Shown here: in pieces, positions 1,653 through 30,241 of the stretch
How positions within the stretch are numbered: the stretch's first letter is position 1
Layout: each line of letters starts with the position of its first letter
Assembly (NCBI GenBank): GCA_036374795.1
Contig: DASUTC010000291.1
Location: 1-42,930 of the forward strand
Reading direction: 5' to 3'
Length of the DNA: 42,930 nt
From: Herpetosiphonaceae bacterium
Lineage (GTDB): Bacteria; Chloroflexota; Chloroflexia; Chloroflexales; Kallotenuaceae
Notes under the pieces: generated by a model
What the model saw: the letters and a program-made list of their open reading frames with translations, nothing else
Databases searched by the model: none
Told to the model about the DNA's origin: nothing
Position numbers and translations under genes: made by a program

Positions 1653-1656
<4 letters not shown>
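1..1656 (-). CDS. NRPS, TubC-type docking domain, condensation and start of adenylation domain (partial)
   Basis: This is the 5' part of a nonribosomal peptide synthetase; the gene continues past base 1. Residues 1-55 match a TubC_N beta-hairpin docking domain, with the VEGDRLRYRGP segment, then LTPE and a RKAELIAAL helix. A condensation domain follows from about residue 70 (PLSFAQQRLWFFDQL), with an intact HHIIADG catalytic motif and the late IGFFVNTL and YAHQDIPFE motifs. The C-A linker (VAAQAARTP) is reached at the window edge, so an adenylation domain should come next. The ATG overlaps the stop of the upstream NRPS by 4 bp (ATGA), and an AGGAA lies 8 bp upstream, so translation is probably coupled. 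The docking domain implies that it receives its substrate from a separate upstream protein, most simply the adjacent one-module NRPS. It was extended by hand to the window edge. The family call is secure; the substrate is not visible. Confidence 0.93.
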
Positions 1657-5042
<3,386 letters not shown>

Positions 5043-5277
5043 GGGAGGCTCCGGATCATCAACGGCGTTTCAAGTTTCAAGTTCAAAGTTTCACGTTCAG
5101 GCCCTCACCCAGGGCCGGGTACCATGCCCAGAGGGCACCCGGCCTCTCCAGGCCCAGAGGGCACCCCCCTTGGCATAGGAGAGGGGGAGTGACGGCACAT
5201 ACGGTTACTCGTTGTTCCTTTGTTCCTTTGTTCCTTTGTTCCTTTGTTCCTTTGTTCTCTGTTTGTTCCTGGGTTCG
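5043..5277. repeat. Intergenic composite repeat island
   Basis: This 235-bp gap lies between the monooxygenase and the downstream one-module NRPS. On the plus strand it holds, in order: heptamers of the GTTTCAA type (5067-5100); a palindrome with stem GGCCGGGT/ACCCGGCC at 5113-5120 and 5137-5144 enclosing the core ATGCCCAGAGGGCACCCG; a second copy of the CCCAGAGGGCACCC core (about 5152-5166); and five perfect copies plus one decayed copy of the octamer TTGTTCCT (5212-5259). The components are the same as in the three adenylation-domain islands. Only the NRPS ribosome binding site (GGAG near its start) is recognisable as functional. The long palindrome could affect transcript stability or partial termination inside the operon, which is inference. 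Confidence 0.85.
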
Positions 5278-11176: not shown

Positions 11177-14100
11177 CTACTCTTGATGCTCGCCGCGCCT
11201 GGGACGGCCAGCGCGCTGTTTCAGCCAGCTTCGGCCCTCTTTGACGGTCTGAAGCTGCTGCTTGGACTGTGGCGGTGACTGATCGGGCGTGGGCTGGCTG
11301 AGGTGCTCGGCCAGCGCGCTGACGGTCGGATACTTGAAGAGATCGACCATCGCGATGGCGCAGTTGAAGATCGTGCTGAGCTGGCTGTGCGCCTGCACCA
11401 CCAGCAGCGAGTGGCCGCCGAGATCGAAGAAGTTGTCGTGGAGGCCGATCTGCTCGATGTTGAGCAGCGCCTGCCATACTGCCGCAATCGTGCGCTCGAC
11501 CTCGGTGCGCGGCGCGACAAAGGCGGCTTCCAGCGCCGGGCGGGCGGTGTCGGGCACCGGCAGCGCGCTGCGATCGAGCTTGCCGTTGGGCGTCAGCGGC
11601 AGCGTGTCGAGCACGACAAAGGTGTTTGGCACCATGTAGTCGGGGAGGCGCTGTCGCACGTAGGTGCGGAGTTCCGAGTTCCAAGTTCCAAGTTCCAAGT
11701 TTCGAGTTTCGGTTTCCTGGTTCCTTTGTTCTTTGTTCGGGGTGCCCATGCCCAGAGGGCACCCGCGTCTTTGTTCTCCGGTTTGTTCCTTTGTTCCTTT
11801 GTTCCCTTGTTCTCCCACGACATACGCCACCAGCCGCGTATCGCCCGGATGATCTTCGCGCGCCAGCACCACCGCCTCACGAATCGCGGGATGCTGCCGG
11901 AGCACCGTCTCGATCTCGCCCAGCTCGATGCGGAAGCCGCGCACTTTGACCTGCTGGTCGCTGCGGCCAAGGTAGATCACGTTGCCGTCGGGCTGGTAGC
12001 GCGCCAGGTCGCCGGTCTTGTAGAGTCGCGCGCCCGGATTCTGGCCGAACGGATCGGGGATGAAGCGCTCGGCGGTCAGATCGGGCCGGTTGAGATAGCC
12101 ATGAGCCAAGCCCACGCCGCCGATATAGAGCTCACCGACCACGCCGACCGGCACCGGGTGCAGCCCCGCGTTCAAAATATAGACCTGCGCGTTGCCGACT
12201 GGACGGCCAATCGGCGGGCTGTGCGGCGGAGCGTCGCGGCACTCGAAGCTGGTCGAGTACACCGTTGTCTCAGTAGGACCGTAGGAGTTGAAGAAGCGTC
12301 GTCTACGACCGTCCGCATCGGTCAGCCAGCGCGCGACGACCTCAGCCGAACATGCTTCGGTTCCCGCGTTGATCACAGCCAGCTGCGGCAGGTCGTCCGC
12401 TCGGGTGAGCGCCAGCGCCGAGGGCGATACCAGCGCGTGCGTGATCGCCTGCTCGCGGAGCAGCGTGTAGATTGCCAGCCCCGGCAGCAGCGCCTCTCGA
12501 TCGGCGATGCACAACGCCGCGCCGCTCAGCAGCGCGAAGACAAACTCCCAGACCGAGGCGTCGAAGCTGGGCGAGGCGAATTGCAGCACCCGGCTGCCGA
12601 CACCAACATTCATCCGCCTGATCTGGCTTGCGGTAAGGCTGACCAGCCCACGGTGGGGCAGCATCACTCCTTTGGGCCGTCCGGTCGAGCCGGAGGTGTA
12701 GATGATGTAGGCCAGATCGTCGGGCGTGATCGGGGCGCCGGGATTGGTTTCAGGCTCATGCGCGATCAGCGGCCAGTCAGCGTCGAGGTAGACCAGCGGC
12801 ACATGCTGATCCGCCAGCCGCTCGGCGAGGCGCTGCTGTGTCAGCAGCAGCGGAGCCTGCGTATCCGCCAGCATAAAGGCCAGCCGCTCCTGAGGGTAGC
12901 CGGGGTCCAGCGGGACGTAGACGCCGCCCGCCTTGAGAATCGCCAGGAAGCCCACGATCAGCTCAAGGCCGCGATCGACACACAGCCCGACGCGCATGCC
13001 TCGTGCAACGCCGCGCGCGCGGAGATCGTGCGCGAGCTGGTTTGCGCGCCGGTTGAGCGCGTCGTAGGTCAGCGATTGGCCGTTGTAGGTCAGCGCGACG
13101 GCATCGGGTGTGAGCGCGGCCTGGGCCTCGAAGCAGGTGTGGACGCACGCTTCGTCGGCGTAGGGCGCATCGGTCGCGTTCCACTCGTAGAGCATCCGCT
13201 GGCGCTCGGCCTCAGTCAGCAGCGGCAGATCGACCAGGCGCTGCTCAGGATCGACCGCGATCGCCTCCAGCAGCACCCGAAAGTGCTCGATCATCCGGGC
13301 GATCGTCGCGGCGTCGAAGAGGTCGGTGCGGTACTCGATCCAGCCGGTGAGTTCCTCGGCGCGATCGTCCAGCGCCAGGATCAGATCGTACTTGACCATC
13401 CCAAGCTCGACATCGATGCGCTGCAACTCCAGACCGGCCAGCGCCACGTCGGGCAGCGGCGTGTTCTGGAGCACGAACATCACCTGAAACAGCGGCGTGT
13501 AGCTTGGGTCGCGGGCGGGCCTCAGATGCTCGACCAGTTGCTCGAACGGCAGATCTTGATGAGCATACGCCCCCAGGGTGGTCGCGCGGGTTCGCCGCAG
13601 CAAGGCGCGAAACGTGGGATTGCCCGACAGGTCGGCTCGCAGCACCAGCGTGTTGACGAAAAACCCGATCAGATCCTCGGTGGCGCTGTGGCGGCGGTTG
13701 GCGATCGGGCTGCCGACGATCAGATCGCGCTGCCCGCTGTAGTGTCCGAGCAGCGTTTGCCAGGCCGCCAGCAGCGTCATGAAGAGCGTGACGCCCTCCT
13801 GCTGGCTGAGACGCCTGAGGCGATTGCTCAGCGCGGGCGGCAGCGACAGCGGCATGAGCGTGCCCTCGAAGGTCATCGTCGGCGGTCGGGGACGATCGGT
13901 GGGCAGCTTCAAGACCGAGGGCGCGGCGGCGAGCTGTTGCCGCCAGTAGGCAAGCTGCCGCTCAAGCAGCTCGCCGGGTGCTATGCCCTGAGGGCACCCG
14001 GCAAGCCAGTCGCGCTGCCAGAGGGCGTAGTCGGCATACTGAATCGGAAGATCCGGTACGAGCGGATCGGGCGCGTTATAGTGCGCTGCGATCTCGCGCA

Positions 14101-17100
14101 GCAGCACGCCGATCGACCAGCCATCGGCGATGATGTGGTGCATCGTCAGCAGCAGCAGATGCTCGTCTTCGTCCAGCCGCAGCAGCAGCGCGCGCAGCAG
14201 CGGGCCTGCGGCGAGATCGAAGGGCTGCCGCACGGCCTGGGCCAGCCGCCGCCGAACTTCGTCGGTGCGCGCATCCGGCGGTAGCGCCGAAAGATCATGC
14301 AGCGCCAGCGTCAGGCGGTAGCTCGGCGCGATCCGCTGGATCGGCTGTCCTGCGACGGCCTCGAATGTGGTCCGCAGCGTCTCATGGCGCTGGACGACGG
14401 CATTAAGGCTCGTTTCCAGCGCGGCCACGTCGAGCAGGCCAGTGAGCCGGACGGCAGCCGGAATCACGTAGGTTGCGCTGTCGGGCTGTAGCTGGCTTAG
14501 AAACCAGAGCCGCTGCTGCGCGAACGAGAGCGGCAGGTCGCGATCACGGGGAGCCCGATACAGCGGCGGTGGGAGCAGCCCCACTCGATCGCGCCCGGCC
14601 TGATCGATCCACTCCGCCAGGCTGCCGACCGTGGGCGAGGCAAAGAGCGTCCGCAGCGGCAGCTCCACCTGGAAGGCGTCGCGCACCCGCGAGGCGATCT
14701 GTGTCGCCAGCAGCGAGTGGCCGCCCAGCTCGAAGAAGTTGTCGTGCGCGCTCACCCGCTCCACGCCGAGCACCTCGGCCCACAGACCGGCGAGAATCAA
14801 CTCCGTCTCGGTGCGCGGCGCGACGTAGCCAGCAGTTAGCTCAGCCTGTCGCTCCGGCGCGGGCAGCGCGCGGCGGTCGATCTTGCCGCTGGGCGTCTTC
14901 GGCAGGGCCTCCAGAAAGACGAACGCGGATGGGATCATGTACTCCGGCAGGTGCTCTTTCAGGTAGGCGCGGAGTTCCGATTTCCACGTTTCAAGTTTCA
15001 AGTTTCGAGTTTCGAGTTTCGAGTTTCCGGCTCTCGGCTCTTGGTTCCCGGTGCCATGCGAGTGCCCATGCCGGGCGCCCTCTGGGCATGGCACCCGTAT
15101 AGCGCCCGTTCTTTGTTCTACCACGTACGCCACCAGCCGCCGCGCCCCAAGGGCACCCGCGCCATCCTCGCGCGCCAGCACCACGCACTCATCCACCTGG
15201 GGATGCTGCGCCAGCACGGCCTCGATCTCACCTGTCTCGATGCGGAAGCCTCGGATCTTCACCTGATGATCGATGCGGCCCAGGATCTCGACCGTGCCGT
15301 CGGGCTGCCAGCGGCCCAGGTCGCCGGTGCGCACCATGATCTGCCCGTCCTCGAAGGGACACGGCACGAAGCGCTCAGCGGTCAGCTCCGGGCGGAAGAG
15401 GTAGCCGCGCGAGACGCTCTCGCCGGAGATGCAGACCTCGCCCGCGATGCCCACCGGCTGCGGCTGGTCGAAGCGATTCAAGATATAGATCCGGTTGTTC
15501 TGCAAGGGCTTGCCCACCGTGATCGGCTTGCCACGATCGGCGGCGCGAATCACGCCCAGCGCGTTAATGTCGCTGATCTCGGTTAGGCCATAGATGTTAA
15601 CCACCTCGACCTGCGCCCCAAGCTGGCCGAAGACCGCCTGAAGCAAGCGCGGCTCGATCTTCTCGCCGCCGAGCAACAGGTAGCGCAGCACGTTCGGGGG
15701 GCGTTCGGGCGTGTTGAGCACGGCGTGCAGATACGAGGGCACCGCGTCCAGCAGGTGGATCTGGTGCTCATCGAGGTAGCGCAGGAGCGCGCGGCTGTTA
15801 AACTTGACCGGGTCGGGGATGATGTGCAGCGTGCGGCCAAAGATCAGCGTCGGGAAGATCTGGTTGACCGAAATATCGAAGCTGATCGAGGTGATCAGGC
15901 CGGTGTGCTGCACTGCCGGATCGGTGAAGTAGGCGCGCAGGCCATAGACGAGATTGATCAAGCCGCGCTGCGTGACCATCACGCCCTTTGGTCGGCCCGT
16001 GGAGCCGGAGGTGAAGATGATATAGGCCAGGTGTTCCGGCAGCGCGGTGCGCGGCGGGTTGGTGGTGCTGCAATTCGCCAGTCGATCCCAATCGGCATCG
16101 AGGCAGAACACCTGCGCCTGATGTTCCGGTAAACGTTCGACGAGCGCGGCCTGGGTCAGGAGCACCGGCGCGCGGCTGTGCGACAGCATGTACTGAAGCC
16201 GCTCGGCGGGATAGGTGGGATCAAGCGGCACGTACGCGCCGCCGGCCTTGAGGATCGCCAGCATGCCGACGATCATCTCCAGCGAGCGCTCGACACACAG
16301 CGCGACGAGCACATCCGGGCCGACGCCCTGAGCGCGCAAATAGTGCGCAAGCTGATTCGCCCGCGTGTTCAGCTCGGCGTAGCTCAGCGCTTGCCCATCG
16401 AAGACGATCGCGGGTACGTCGGGCGTGCGCGCGGCCTGCACCTCGATTAATGCATGCACAGCGGCAGCGCACGGATACTCCGCCCCGGAGCGGTTCCAGT
16501 CGACGAGCATCTGCTGCTGCTCGGCCTCCGTCAGCAGCGGCAGGTGGGCGATCGGCGCATCAGGATCGGCGACGATGCCCGTCAGCAGGGTTTGAAAATG
16601 CGCGGCCATCCGCGCGATCGTCGCAGCCTCGAACAGGGCGGTGTTGTACTCGATCCAGCCGCGCAGCCCATCGGCGTGCTCTTCGAGATTGAGCATCAGA
16701 TCGAACTTGGCCGTGCCGGTGTCGCCCTCCTCAAGCGTCAGCGTCAGATCGGGCAACGCGATCGTGTCGCTCTGGCTGGGCTGAAGCACGAACATGACTT
16801 GAAAGAGCGGCGAGCGGCTGGGATCGCGATCGGGCTGAAGCACCTCGACAAGTTGGACAAAGGGCATGTCCTGATGCGCGTAGGCATCCACACAGGTGGC
16901 GCGCACCCGTGCCAGCAGCTCGCGGAACGTGGGATTGCCCGACAGATCCGTGCGCAGTACAAGATTATCGACGAAGAAGCCGATCAGCGCCTCAAGCTCG
17001 CGCCGGGTACGCCCCGCCGCCACCGAGCCGACGACGATCTCGTCCTGCTGGCTGTAGCGCTGGAGGAGCGTCTGCCAGGCGGCGAGCAGGGTCATAAAGA

Positions 17101-17980
17101 GCGTGGCGCTGTGCTGCTGGCCTAGCTCCTTGAGCGCCTGCGTCAGGTTCGCGGCTACGTGCAGGCGGTGCCGATCGCCCTGGAAGGTCTGGAGCGGCGG
17201 ACGTGGCCGATCGGTGGGCAGGTGCAGCGTCGGCAGGTCCGCGAGGCGCTGCCGCCAGTGATCGATCTGCCGGGCGTGGGTTGTGCCCTGCATGCGCTGC
17301 CGCTGCCAGTCGGCAAAGTCGGCGTACTGGACCGGCAGCGCCGGGAGCGAGGCCGGCCTGCCGTCGATCAGGGCGGTGTAGATCTCGGCCAGCTCACGGA
17401 CGAACACGCCGATCGACCAGCCATCGGCGATGATATGATGCAGCGTCAGCAGCAGCAGATGCTCCTGCGGACCAAGCTGGAGCAGCAGCGTGCGGAGCAG
17501 CGGGCCTTGCGCCAGATCAAACGGCTGCCGCGCCTCATCGGATGTGTGCCGCCGCACGACGACGGCCTGCTCCGGCTGGGGTAGTTCGCGCAGATCGACC
17601 CGGCGCAGTGTCACCGTCGCTTCCTGCTCCACGCGCTGCATCGGCACGCCGTCCACGTCGACGAAGCTCGCGCGCAGAACATCATGGCGCTGCACGATCT
17701 GGTGCAGGCTGCGCTCAAGCACGGTGACATCCAGCCGTCCGCGCAGGTGGACGACTCCGGGCATGTTGTAGGCCGCGCTATTGGGATCGAGCTGGTTGAC
17801 GAGCCAGAGCCGCTGCTGGGCAAACGACAGCGGTGTACAGGTGCGATCCGCAAGCCGAGGGATCGGGGTCGCGGTCGCCGGAGCGGAGCGGGTTTTGATC
17901 TGCAACCACCGTTCGAGCAGCGCGCGTCGTGTCTCCGAGAGCTGGTCGCGGCTGGGGAGGCGATCCTCGTCGTGCGTCAT
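11177..17980 (-). CDS. Two-module NRPS (C-A-PCP-C-A-PCP)
   Basis: This 2267-residue synthetase adds two amino acids. Approximate layout: C1 50-480 (HHIIADG), A1 490-1030, PCP1 around 1080 (FFELGGHSLL), C2 1145-1585 (HHIIADG), A2 1600-2120, PCP2 around 2180 (FFDLGGHSLL). A1 is atypical, with A4 FDISVNQ and A5 YGLTEIS; its pocket read by eye is D-I-N-A-L-G-I-D-I. A2 has classical FDASVWE and YGPTETT; its pocket reads D-A-W-L-I-A-S-V-Y, nearest to aromatic or hydrophobic codes, with low confidence. Each A domain carries a 47-residue repeat-derived insert between AYVV and the LRxYL helix, and C2 carries an 8-residue palindrome-derived insert. The ATG at 17980 was chosen because AGGAGG lies 8 bp upstream; an in-frame ATG at 18028 has no such site. 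The first domain is a C domain, so something upstream must supply a starter. Confidence 0.95.
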   Translation of the reverse strand: MTHDEDRLPSRDQLSETRRALLERWLQIKTRSAPATATPIPRLADRTCTPLSFAQQRLWLVNQLDPNSAAYNMPGVVHLRGRLDVTVLERSLHQIVQRHDVLRASFVDVDGVPMQRVEQEATVTLRRVDLRELPQPEQAVVVRRHTSDEARQPFDLAQGPLLRTLLLQLGPQEHLLLLTLHHIIADGWSIGVFVRELAEIYTALIDGRPASLPALPVQYADFADWQRQRMQGTTHARQIDHWRQRLADLPTLHLPTDRPRPPLQTFQGDRHRLHVAANLTQALKELGQQHSATLFMTLLAAWQTLLQRYSQQDEIVVGSVAAGRTRRELEALIGFFVDNLVLRTDLSGNPTFRELLARVRATCVDAYAHQDMPFVQLVEVLQPDRDPSRSPLFQVMFVLQPSQSDTIALPDLTLTLEEGDTGTAKFDLMLNLEEHADGLRGWIEYNTALFEAATIARMAAHFQTLLTGIVADPDAPIAHLPLLTEAEQQQMLVDWNRSGAEYPCAAAVHALIEVQAARTPDVPAIVFDGQALSYAELNTRANQLAHYLRAQGVGPDVLVALCVERSLEMIVGMLAILKAGGAYVPLDPTYPAERLQYMLSHSRAPVLLTQAALVERLPEHQAQVFCLDADWDRLANCSTTNPPRTALPEHLAYIIFTSGSTGRPKGVMVTQRGLINLVYGLRAYFTDPAVQHTGLITSISFDISVNQIFPTLIFGRTLHIIPDPVKFNSRALLRYLDEHQIHLLDAVPSYLHAVLNTPERPPNVLRYLLLGGEKIEPRLLQAVFGQLGAQVEVVNIYGLTEISDINALGVIRAADRGKPITVGKPLQNNRIYILNRFDQPQPVGIAGEVCISGESVSRGYLFRPELTAERFVPCPFEDGQIMVRTGDLGRWQPDGTVEILGRIDHQVKIRGFRIETGEIEAVLAQHPQVDECVVLAREDGAGALGARRLVAYVVEQRTGAIRVPCPEGARHGHSHGTGNQEPRAGNSKLETRNLKLETWKSELRAYLKEHLPEYMIPSAFVFLEALPKTPSGKIDRRALPAPERQAELTAGYVAPRTETELILAGLWAEVLGVERVSAHDNFFELGGHSLLATQIASRVRDAFQVELPLRTLFASPTVGSLAEWIDQAGRDRVGLLPPPLYRAPRDRDLPLSFAQQRLWFLSQLQPDSATYVIPAAVRLTGLLDVAALETSLNAVVQRHETLRTTFEAVAGQPIQRIAPSYRLTLALHDLSALPPDARTDEVRRRLAQAVRQPFDLAAGPLLRALLLRLDEDEHLLLLTMHHIIADGWSIGVLLREIAAHYNAPDPLVPDLPIQYADYALWQRDWLAGCPQGIAPGELLERQLAYWRQQLAAAPSVLKLPTDRPRPPTMTFEGTLMPLSLPPALSNRLRRLSQQEGVTLFMTLLAAWQTLLGHYSGQRDLIVGSPIANRRHSATEDLIGFFVNTLVLRADLSGNPTFRALLRRTRATTLGAYAHQDLPFEQLVEHLRPARDPSYTPLFQVMFVLQNTPLPDVALAGLELQRIDVELGMVKYDLILALDDRAEELTGWIEYRTDLFDAATIARMIEHFRVLLEAIAVDPEQRLVDLPLLTEAERQRMLYEWNATDAPYADEACVHTCFEAQAALTPDAVALTYNGQSLTYDALNRRANQLAHDLRARGVARGMRVGLCVDRGLELIVGFLAILKAGGVYVPLDPGYPQERLAFMLADTQAPLLLTQQRLAERLADQHVPLVYLDADWPLIAHEPETNPGAPITPDDLAYIIYTSGSTGRPKGVMLPHRGLVSLTASQIRRMNVGVGSRVLQFASPSFDASVWEFVFALLSGAALCIADREALLPGLAIYTLLREQAITHALVSPSALALTRADDLPQLAVINAGTEACSAEVVARWLTDADGRRRRFFNSYGPTETTVYSTSFECRDAPPHSPPIGRPVGNAQVYILNAGLHPVPVGVVGELYIGGVGLAHGYLNRPDLTAERFIPDPFGQNPGARLYKTGDLARYQPDGNVIYLGRSDQQVKVRGFRIELGEIETVLRQHPAIREAVVLAREDHPGDTRLVAYVVGEQGNKGTKEQTGEQRRGCPLGMGTPNKEQRNQETETRNLELGTWNSELRTYVRQRLPDYMVPNTFVVLDTLPLTPNGKLDRSALPVPDTARPALEAAFVAPRTEVERTIAAVWQALLNIEQIGLHDNFFDLGGHSLLVVQAHSQLSTIFNCAIAMVDLFKYPTVSALAEHLSQPTPDQSPPQSKQQLQTVKEGRSWLKQRAGRPRRGEHQE
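11672..11812 (-). repeat. In-frame composite repeat island, second A domain
   Basis: Six tandem heptamers (GTTCCAA/GTTTCGA type, 11671-11712 on the plus strand) are followed by a perfect 8-bp palindrome GGGTGCCC/GGGCACCC (11740-11747 and 11757-11764, core ATGCCCAGAGGGCACCCG) and then four octamers of the TTGTTCCT type (11783-11814). The segment encodes exactly 47 residues, rich in K, E, Q, N, R and G, inside the C-terminal subdomain of A2. The order of elements is the same as in the intergenic island at 5043-5277. Confidence 0.88.
13974..14001. repeat. Palindromic element inserted in a condensation domain
   Basis: A 28-bp element has outer arms CCGGGTGC/GCACCCGG and an inner GCCCTGAGGGC. It carries the variant core ATGCCCTGAGGGCACCCGG. 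It adds eight residues (CPQGIAPG) to C2 between RDWLAG and ELLERQ. The C domain of the NRPS at the left edge has RDWLQGKVLEQQ at this place with no insert, so the element is an in-frame insertion relative to a paralogue in the same operon. Confidence 0.85.
14977..15117 (-). repeat. In-frame composite repeat island, first A domain
   Basis: Eight heptamers of the GTTTCGA/GTTTCAA type (14974-15029 on the plus strand) are followed by a long palindrome with 9-bp arms GGTGCCATG/CATGGCACC (15050-15058 and 15087-15095), containing the repeat core in inverse orientation, and then by a trace of the octamer (GTTCTTTGTTC, about 15107-15118). It encodes 47 residues, the same length as the island in A2 although the sequence differs, and sits at the same hinge between AYVVE and LRAYL. 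Confidence 0.87.
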
Positions 17981-18261
17981 AGATGGTCCTCCTGCGCGAA
18001 GCGCTGGCTCTGGATTCTGGTGCGGCATCTCGCCAGCGCACGCCCGCGATGCGCAGGCCGTAGCGTCCGTGCAGGCGCAGCGCAGCGGCGCGCCCTTCGC
18101 TCACCCGGCAGCAGCGCCGCGATCTCCTGGGAGCGCCGATCGAGCAGCGTGTAGCCCCGACGAAGCCTGTCAGTTGCGCTATCGACCAGAAAGGTAAGTG
18201 CCTGCTGCTCAGGCTGGCGTTCAGCGCGCGGGCGAAGCAGCGCGGCCAAGAAGTCATTCAT
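17977..18261 (-). pseudogene. Truncated fatty-acyl-AMP ligase (FAAL) remnant
   Basis: From ATG 18261 the frame reads MNDFLAALLRPRAERQPE, then ALTFLVD and YTLLDRRSQEIAALL. This is the typical N-terminal start of fatty-acyl-AMP ligases, which activate a fatty acid and load it on a carrier protein at the head of lipopeptide assembly lines. After about 55 residues the similarity stops, and the frame continues as Arg/Ala-rich nonsense into the start of the two-module NRPS. More than 500 residues, including every AMP-binding motif, are missing. A neighbouring frame (18080-18000, ...LRIAGVRWRDAAPES...) may be another scrap but could not be assigned. The remnant sits where a starter ligase would be expected: first in the operon, behind the promoter. 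The alternative is a short unrelated ORF, but the match over 50 residues makes the remnant more likely. Confidence 0.6.
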
Positions 18262-30020: not shown

Positions 30021-30144
30021 CTACGATCGCATCCACGCGATTGTGTTGCGGAAACATTCATTGGGCCAATCGCATCCACGGTCTTTCGTACATGTCCATC
30101 AGCCCACCTCTGCATGCGATCATCCAAGATCCTCGCCCGCCACC

Positions 30145-30241
30145 GCTGCACGGCGCTTCTATACCGCTACATAGCGCTTCTACACCACTGCACAGCACGT
30201 CTGCACTACTGCACAGCACGTCTGCACCGCTCCGCAGCGCC
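30145..30241. repeat. 21-bp tandem repeat, about 4.5 copies
   Basis: Units start at 30145, 30166, 30187 and 30108+21=30208-type spacing of 21 bp is kept: 30145-30165, 30166-30186, 30187-30207, 30208-30228, then a partial unit to 30241. Copies 3 and 4 are nearly identical (ACTGCACAGCACGTCTGCAC); copies 1 and 2 are diverged. It lies outside any supported gene. Confidence 0.75.

Follow-up and report, generated by a model that had tools for sequence, protein, structure and literature searches.

Palindromic repeats within genes have been described before, for the most part as isolated instances. REP sequences are palindromes of 20-40 bp that are present in high copy number, mostly between genes, and some lie wholly within open reading frames and are translated (PMC3733652). 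The CGTC REPs have no known transposase, and in the recB genes of X. campestris and X. oryzae REPs occupy about the same site (PMC3733652). The Rickettsia palindromic elements (RPEs) are palindromic repeats that lie in frame in many protein genes and are tolerated by the protein (PMC10969869). The GC clusters of yeast mitochondria, such as GC42, are short palindromes rich in GC; they multiply, fuse and shuffle with no transposase of their own, and putative co-conversion tracts have been reported for them (PMC4478555). Recombination has been reported as a key driver of NRPS gene evolution (PMC8097286).

The palindrome described here lies in an NRPS gene of the window (the whole stretch of DNA that was analysed, 42,930 nucleotides). 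Its kind is known, but it is an unusually rich example of a protein family with residues derived from a repeat. Like the GTAG and CGTC REPs, its family consists of short, high-copy palindromes, some of which are intragenic and translated; unlike them, it shows neither a GTAG nor a CGTC tag, is found in one genus only, recurs in the same loops of one enzyme superfamily and often sits in heptamer and octamer tracts (PMC3733652). With the RPEs it shares in-frame insertion tolerated by the protein, whereas RPEs are about 150 bp long, encode a longer conserved peptide and lie in unrelated metabolic genes (PMC10969869); the family in the window is a word of 24-28 bp that occurs in the loops of NRPS paralogues whatever the frame or orientation. 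The GC clusters shuffle in a similar manner but belong to a eukaryotic organelle and differ in sequence and host (PMC4478555). NRPS recombination is a possible route for short stretches between modules, and the part of that work considered here does not describe palindromic words of 12-24 bp (PMC8097286).

Window positions 13974-14001 read CCGGGTGC-TATGCCCTGAGG-GCACCCGG. On the minus strand the added codons are TGC CCT CAG GGC ATA GCA CCC GGC and the reading frame runs RDWLAG-CPQGIAPG-ELLERQ; the position and the peptide are exactly those of the original prediction. The same prediction held that the paralogous condensation (C) domain at the left edge of the window lacks the insert, and this domain (175-1461) indeed reads RDWLQGKVLEQQ. 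The feature is a DNA-level repeat copy inside C-domain coding sequence, with a net gain of 24 bp and eight residues, in frame. The ATA codon of the insert is one of only 2 among the 240 Ile codons of the three NRPS open reading frames in the window, as would be expected if this DNA had not evolved as coding sequence. No heptamer or octamer tract occurs within 250 bp of the palindrome, making it the solo copy that had been proposed. The features and their positions are collected in Table 1.

Table 1. Features of the palindromic repeat in the window and the NRPS loops that host its family.
Feature	Position	Strand	Remarks
NRPS open reading frame	11177..18028	-	2283 aa; two C, two A (AMP-binding) and two carrier (PP-binding) domains
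C domain with insert	13253..14599	-	
28-bp palindrome CCGGGTGCTATGCCCTGAGGGCACCCGG	13974-14001	.	8-bp perfect arms
22-bp repeat core of palindrome	13977..13998	.	120 genome copies at up to 3 mismatches
24 bp coding, 8 codons CPQGIAPG	13973..13996	-	missing in other compared C domains except C41 paralogue
Core copy in in-frame composite island, A domain	15074..15095	-	VAYVV...LRAYL linker
Heptamer tract of the 15074..15095 A-domain island	14972..15027	-	
Core copy in second A-domain island	11742..11763	+	in frame
Heptamer (AGTTCCA) and octamer (TTTGTTCC) tracts around 11742 core	11670..11812	-	
Core copy in spacer upstream of NRPS open reading frame 1653-5042	5118..5139	+	half-core 5152-5165, octamers 5212-5257
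C-domain loops with cores			WLA/ELLERQ; YWRQQLG/LELPTD; before LPDLPIQYADF; before HHxxxDG strand
A-domain loops with cores			FIPDPF/RLYRTGD; VAYVV/LRxxL
GGGTGCCCTCAG half-word in GVG/GETLVG loop			A domains L177, L201, L221, L223, L224, L226, L231, L264

The palindrome is a member of a lineage-specific, genome-wide REP-like repeat family. With up to 3 mismatches allowed, its 22-bp core matches the 7.75-Mb genome 120 times and a reversed control not once. The family consensus is close to CCGGGTGCCATGCCCAGAGGGCACCCGG; 63 copies from outside NRPS genes have a flank consensus of C/G-C-G at one end and C-G-G-C at the opposite end, and the palindrome in the window shows the same outer C/G-C-G ... 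C-G-G ends. Among the congeners, 8 weak core copies occur in G001 and none in G002 or G003; the other 399 genomes sampled from the phylum gave no core at up to 1 mismatch, nor was there a match in viral contigs. Most copies are held in composite islands, with heptamers (e.g. AAGTTTC) on one side and octamers of the kind listed in Table 1 on the other, and these islands also contain further GCATGGCACCC half units. The orientation of the asymmetric core with respect to tract polarity is random (34:28). At up to 4 mismatches, 90 of 113 copies are outside NRPS coding sequence, not each of them necessarily intergenic, and 70 of these 90 have tracts. Solo copies account for 14 of the 23 in NRPS genes and for 20 of the 90 elsewhere (Fisher p = 7e-4). 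The genome sample comprised about 1.6 Mb in stretches mostly centred on core copies; the NRPS share is biased and enrichment in NRPS genes is not claimed. The open reading frame around a core at 9948 in L198 has no Pfam match and was left out of the gene count. A core-like copy with 4 mismatches is also present in the acyltransferase domain region of a PKS open reading frame (L160:2768).

The core was further predicted to match the palindrome of the A-domain islands of the window. This is correct at 11742 and 15074; the island at 2163-2192 has tracts and no core, and the copy at 5118 is in a spacer, not in an A domain. The tracts at 2163-2192, 11670-11812 and 14972-15027 are stop-free in the NRPS frame and fill the variable A-domain linker VAYVV...LRxxL. 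The congener orthologue of one tract-bearing A domain (C170 compared with G001:C972) has another tract mixture at the same linker; the pair was considered as a clean empty site and rejected, the congener having a different island there.

The palindrome fits the general definition of REP sequences (imperfect palindromes of 20-40 bp in high copy within one genome or genus), being 28 bp long and present in 120 copies. Neither a GTAG nor a CGTC tag occurs in the flank consensus of the 63 copies, and by its ends the palindrome is not part of either REP superfamily. RAYT-mobilised REPs flank a Y1 tyrosine transposase gene, an arrangement that was not found here: no intact RAYT was found in the genome, the only Y1_Tnp match being a 35-residue remnant with a stop, and the intact Y1 transposases of the congeners have no flanking palindrome copies. 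The in-frame insertion in protein genes is that of RPEs; the length of 24-28 bp and the varying peptides are not those of elements of about 150 bp with a conserved peptide, and by its size the palindrome is not a member of the RPE families. The element is REP-like, as originally predicted; transposition as a MITE, which the same prediction allowed, is no more than a possibility. Inverted arms are present and the search for a parent transposon covered Y1_Tnp only; both ends of the element are CCGG, which is part of its consensus, and a target duplication is not separable from these ends.

The insert is absent from all 159 foreign C domains compared, of which 149 are exactly 8 residues shorter. 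Most paralogous C domains of the same genome also lack it, including an empty site on contig C133 (L234:3671) that reads TGGCTTGCCGGTGAG. No true orthologue of this NRPS was found in the congeners examined (G001-G003), so the empty-site comparison rests on paralogues. The named genomes scanned likewise contain no orthologue (best 56%), and relatives of the same order have no match to this NRPS above 60%. The solved homologue 6p1j has an 8-residue gap at the insert, as do the nearest solved homologues. In an AlphaFold model of the C domain (pLDDT 90.3 overall), the insert forms loop 201-209 between helices 188-200 and 210-222 with a local pLDDT of 61. Judging from this model, the insert occupies what is apparently a tolerant surface loop, and the eight residues are apparently tolerated. 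The loop is longer by at least 4 residues in 10 of 65 C domains of this genome and in 0 of 159 foreign ones (p = 3e-6). Two C domains of the genome have a 12-bp word, CCAGGGGCACCC, in this loop, and three others have variants of it. At the same loop, a C domain of a genome from another family (L123, from G027) reads TGGCTCGGGGGCCCTCAGGGCAGCGCA, also given as GGCCCTCAGGGC, and encodes GGPQGSA. The G027 genome is without the repeat, and the loop hints at some convergence or at an old relation.

At up to 4 mismatches, 23 cores fall in NRPS coding sequence. They are placed between conserved motifs and read in each of the three frames and in either orientation, and about six recurrent loops host them. 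The peptides that these copies encode are unrelated and vary with frame and orientation. Another loop of the A domain, GVG/GETLVG, gains four residues from the 12-bp half-word GGGTGCCCTCAG (GCPQ); this loop is longer in 9 of 31 A domains of the genome and in 0 of 67 foreign ones (p = 1e-5), and one congener gene also has the word. Identity among cores is 91-100% at several sites, against about 61-77% for their flanks. The core of three diverged A domains (L158:3638, L173:9359 and L186:10371) is enclosed by the near-identical flanking words AAACAAAGACGCCG ... CCGGAACAG. The core is inverted in L158 relative to L173 and L186 within the same flanks, and the presence of both orientations in the same surroundings fits hairpin-mediated inversion, as does the random core orientation with respect to tract polarity.

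Contig C41 carries another C domain (L192:970-2289, core L192:1553-1574) with these eight residues, at the codon and in the orientation seen in the window. The core variant TATGCCCTGAGGGCACCCGG is common to these two domains and has no other exact match in the genome. The copy in the window departs from the family (intergenic) consensus at two positions of the core, with both arms intact. The insertion was originally described as fresh, a description that is not supported by these two differences or by the same variant at the same codon of the C41 paralogue. The presence of this variant in a diverged paralogue indicates that it has been inherited or copied since the first arrival of the repeat.

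We consider it likely that a lineage-specific, REP-like palindromic repeat entered a tolerant inter-helix loop of the C domain as a solo copy and in frame, that it is translated and tolerated there, and that it was then probably copied between paralogues. The repeat family would be a non-autonomous, parasitic DNA word that reaches NRPS genes by rare insertion through a putative mobilizing activity. Selection would act as a filter, the survivors being only those copies that kept the frame and fell in loops. After entry into one module, a copy would probably reach paralogous loops through recombination of short tracts or through exchange of domains, as is known of NRPS genes. Copying between paralogous loops is the weakest step of this mechanism. 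A 29-bp run that is identical between the window and C41 was at first taken as decisive evidence of copying and has been downgraded, since runs of at least 26 bp occur in 59 of 377 (16%) similarly diverged C-domain pairs; with such runs this frequent, copying is a step that we infer rather than observe. The large number of NRPS domains in this genome was evident at first look (249 C-domain candidates in G000); NRPS content is also large in G001 and absent from G002 and G003.

Other explanations account for part of these observations. That a GC-rich coding stretch became palindromic by accident is hardly credible: the window is 64% GC and loose palindromes of the same spacing are not rare in it (about 4 expected at 2 mismatches), but the sequence matches a family of 120 copies of which none is expected by chance, shuffled window sequence yields no match to the core at up to 3 mismatches, and the insert is missing from the 159 homologues. 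Copy number refutes this explanation. If one ancestral domain had simply handed the insert down to both the window and C41 domains, and neither later copying nor independent insertion had taken place, the identical codon, orientation and unique core variant would follow. However, the domains are 62.5% identical in DNA overall whereas the insert core is 95% identical, and in the tree they are not sisters, each grouping with different insert-free relatives with modest support; this was a quick tree with weak deep nodes, and it does not formally reject a single origin. We regard such single inheritance as improbable.

Somewhat less probable still is an origin and spread within NRPS genes only, in which a native loop (GGPQGSA or APGAPG) was made palindromic by local template switching and then distributed by domain recombination, the intergenic copies being exports. 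The half-words and variants at the C loop, the half-words at the A-domain loop of own and congener genes, and the GGPQGSA loop in the other family are all in keeping with such an origin. It is harder to reconcile with the majority of full cores being outside NRPS genes, where they usually have tracts, or with a core in the window that lies within 2 mismatches of the intergenic consensus and retains both arms. A functional element under selection, either a hairpin affecting transcription or mRNA stability in the long NRPS transcript or a peptide loop important to the enzyme, is very unlikely. The strand forms a stable hairpin (-16 kcal/mol, z about -2.5) and the same loops are hit recurrently, but the use of every frame and both orientations with unrelated peptides, the lack of an Rfam match, the low confidence of the predicted loop and the fact that most C domains of the genome dispense with the insert all argue against it. 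A bolder idea, which we consider doubtful, is that 12- and 24-bp hairpin units are transposase-free mobile words: recombination alone would copy, invert and combine them, and they would settle again and again in the same loops of NRPS paralogues. Such words, if real, would change loop lengths in assembly-line enzymes.

One genome has dozens of copies in a small set of recurring loops of paralogous megasynthase domains, where filled, half-filled and empty sites occur together. Along with the inverted core in identical flanks, these copies form a natural experiment on the movement of such repeats where no transposase is evident. They also indicate which NRPS loops tolerate insertions, knowledge that is useful for NRPS engineering. 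Alignments of NRPS proteins from such genomes should be used with caution, as they include repeat-derived residues. Elsewhere in the window, a 21-bp tandem repeat of about 5 copies is located at 30141-30240.
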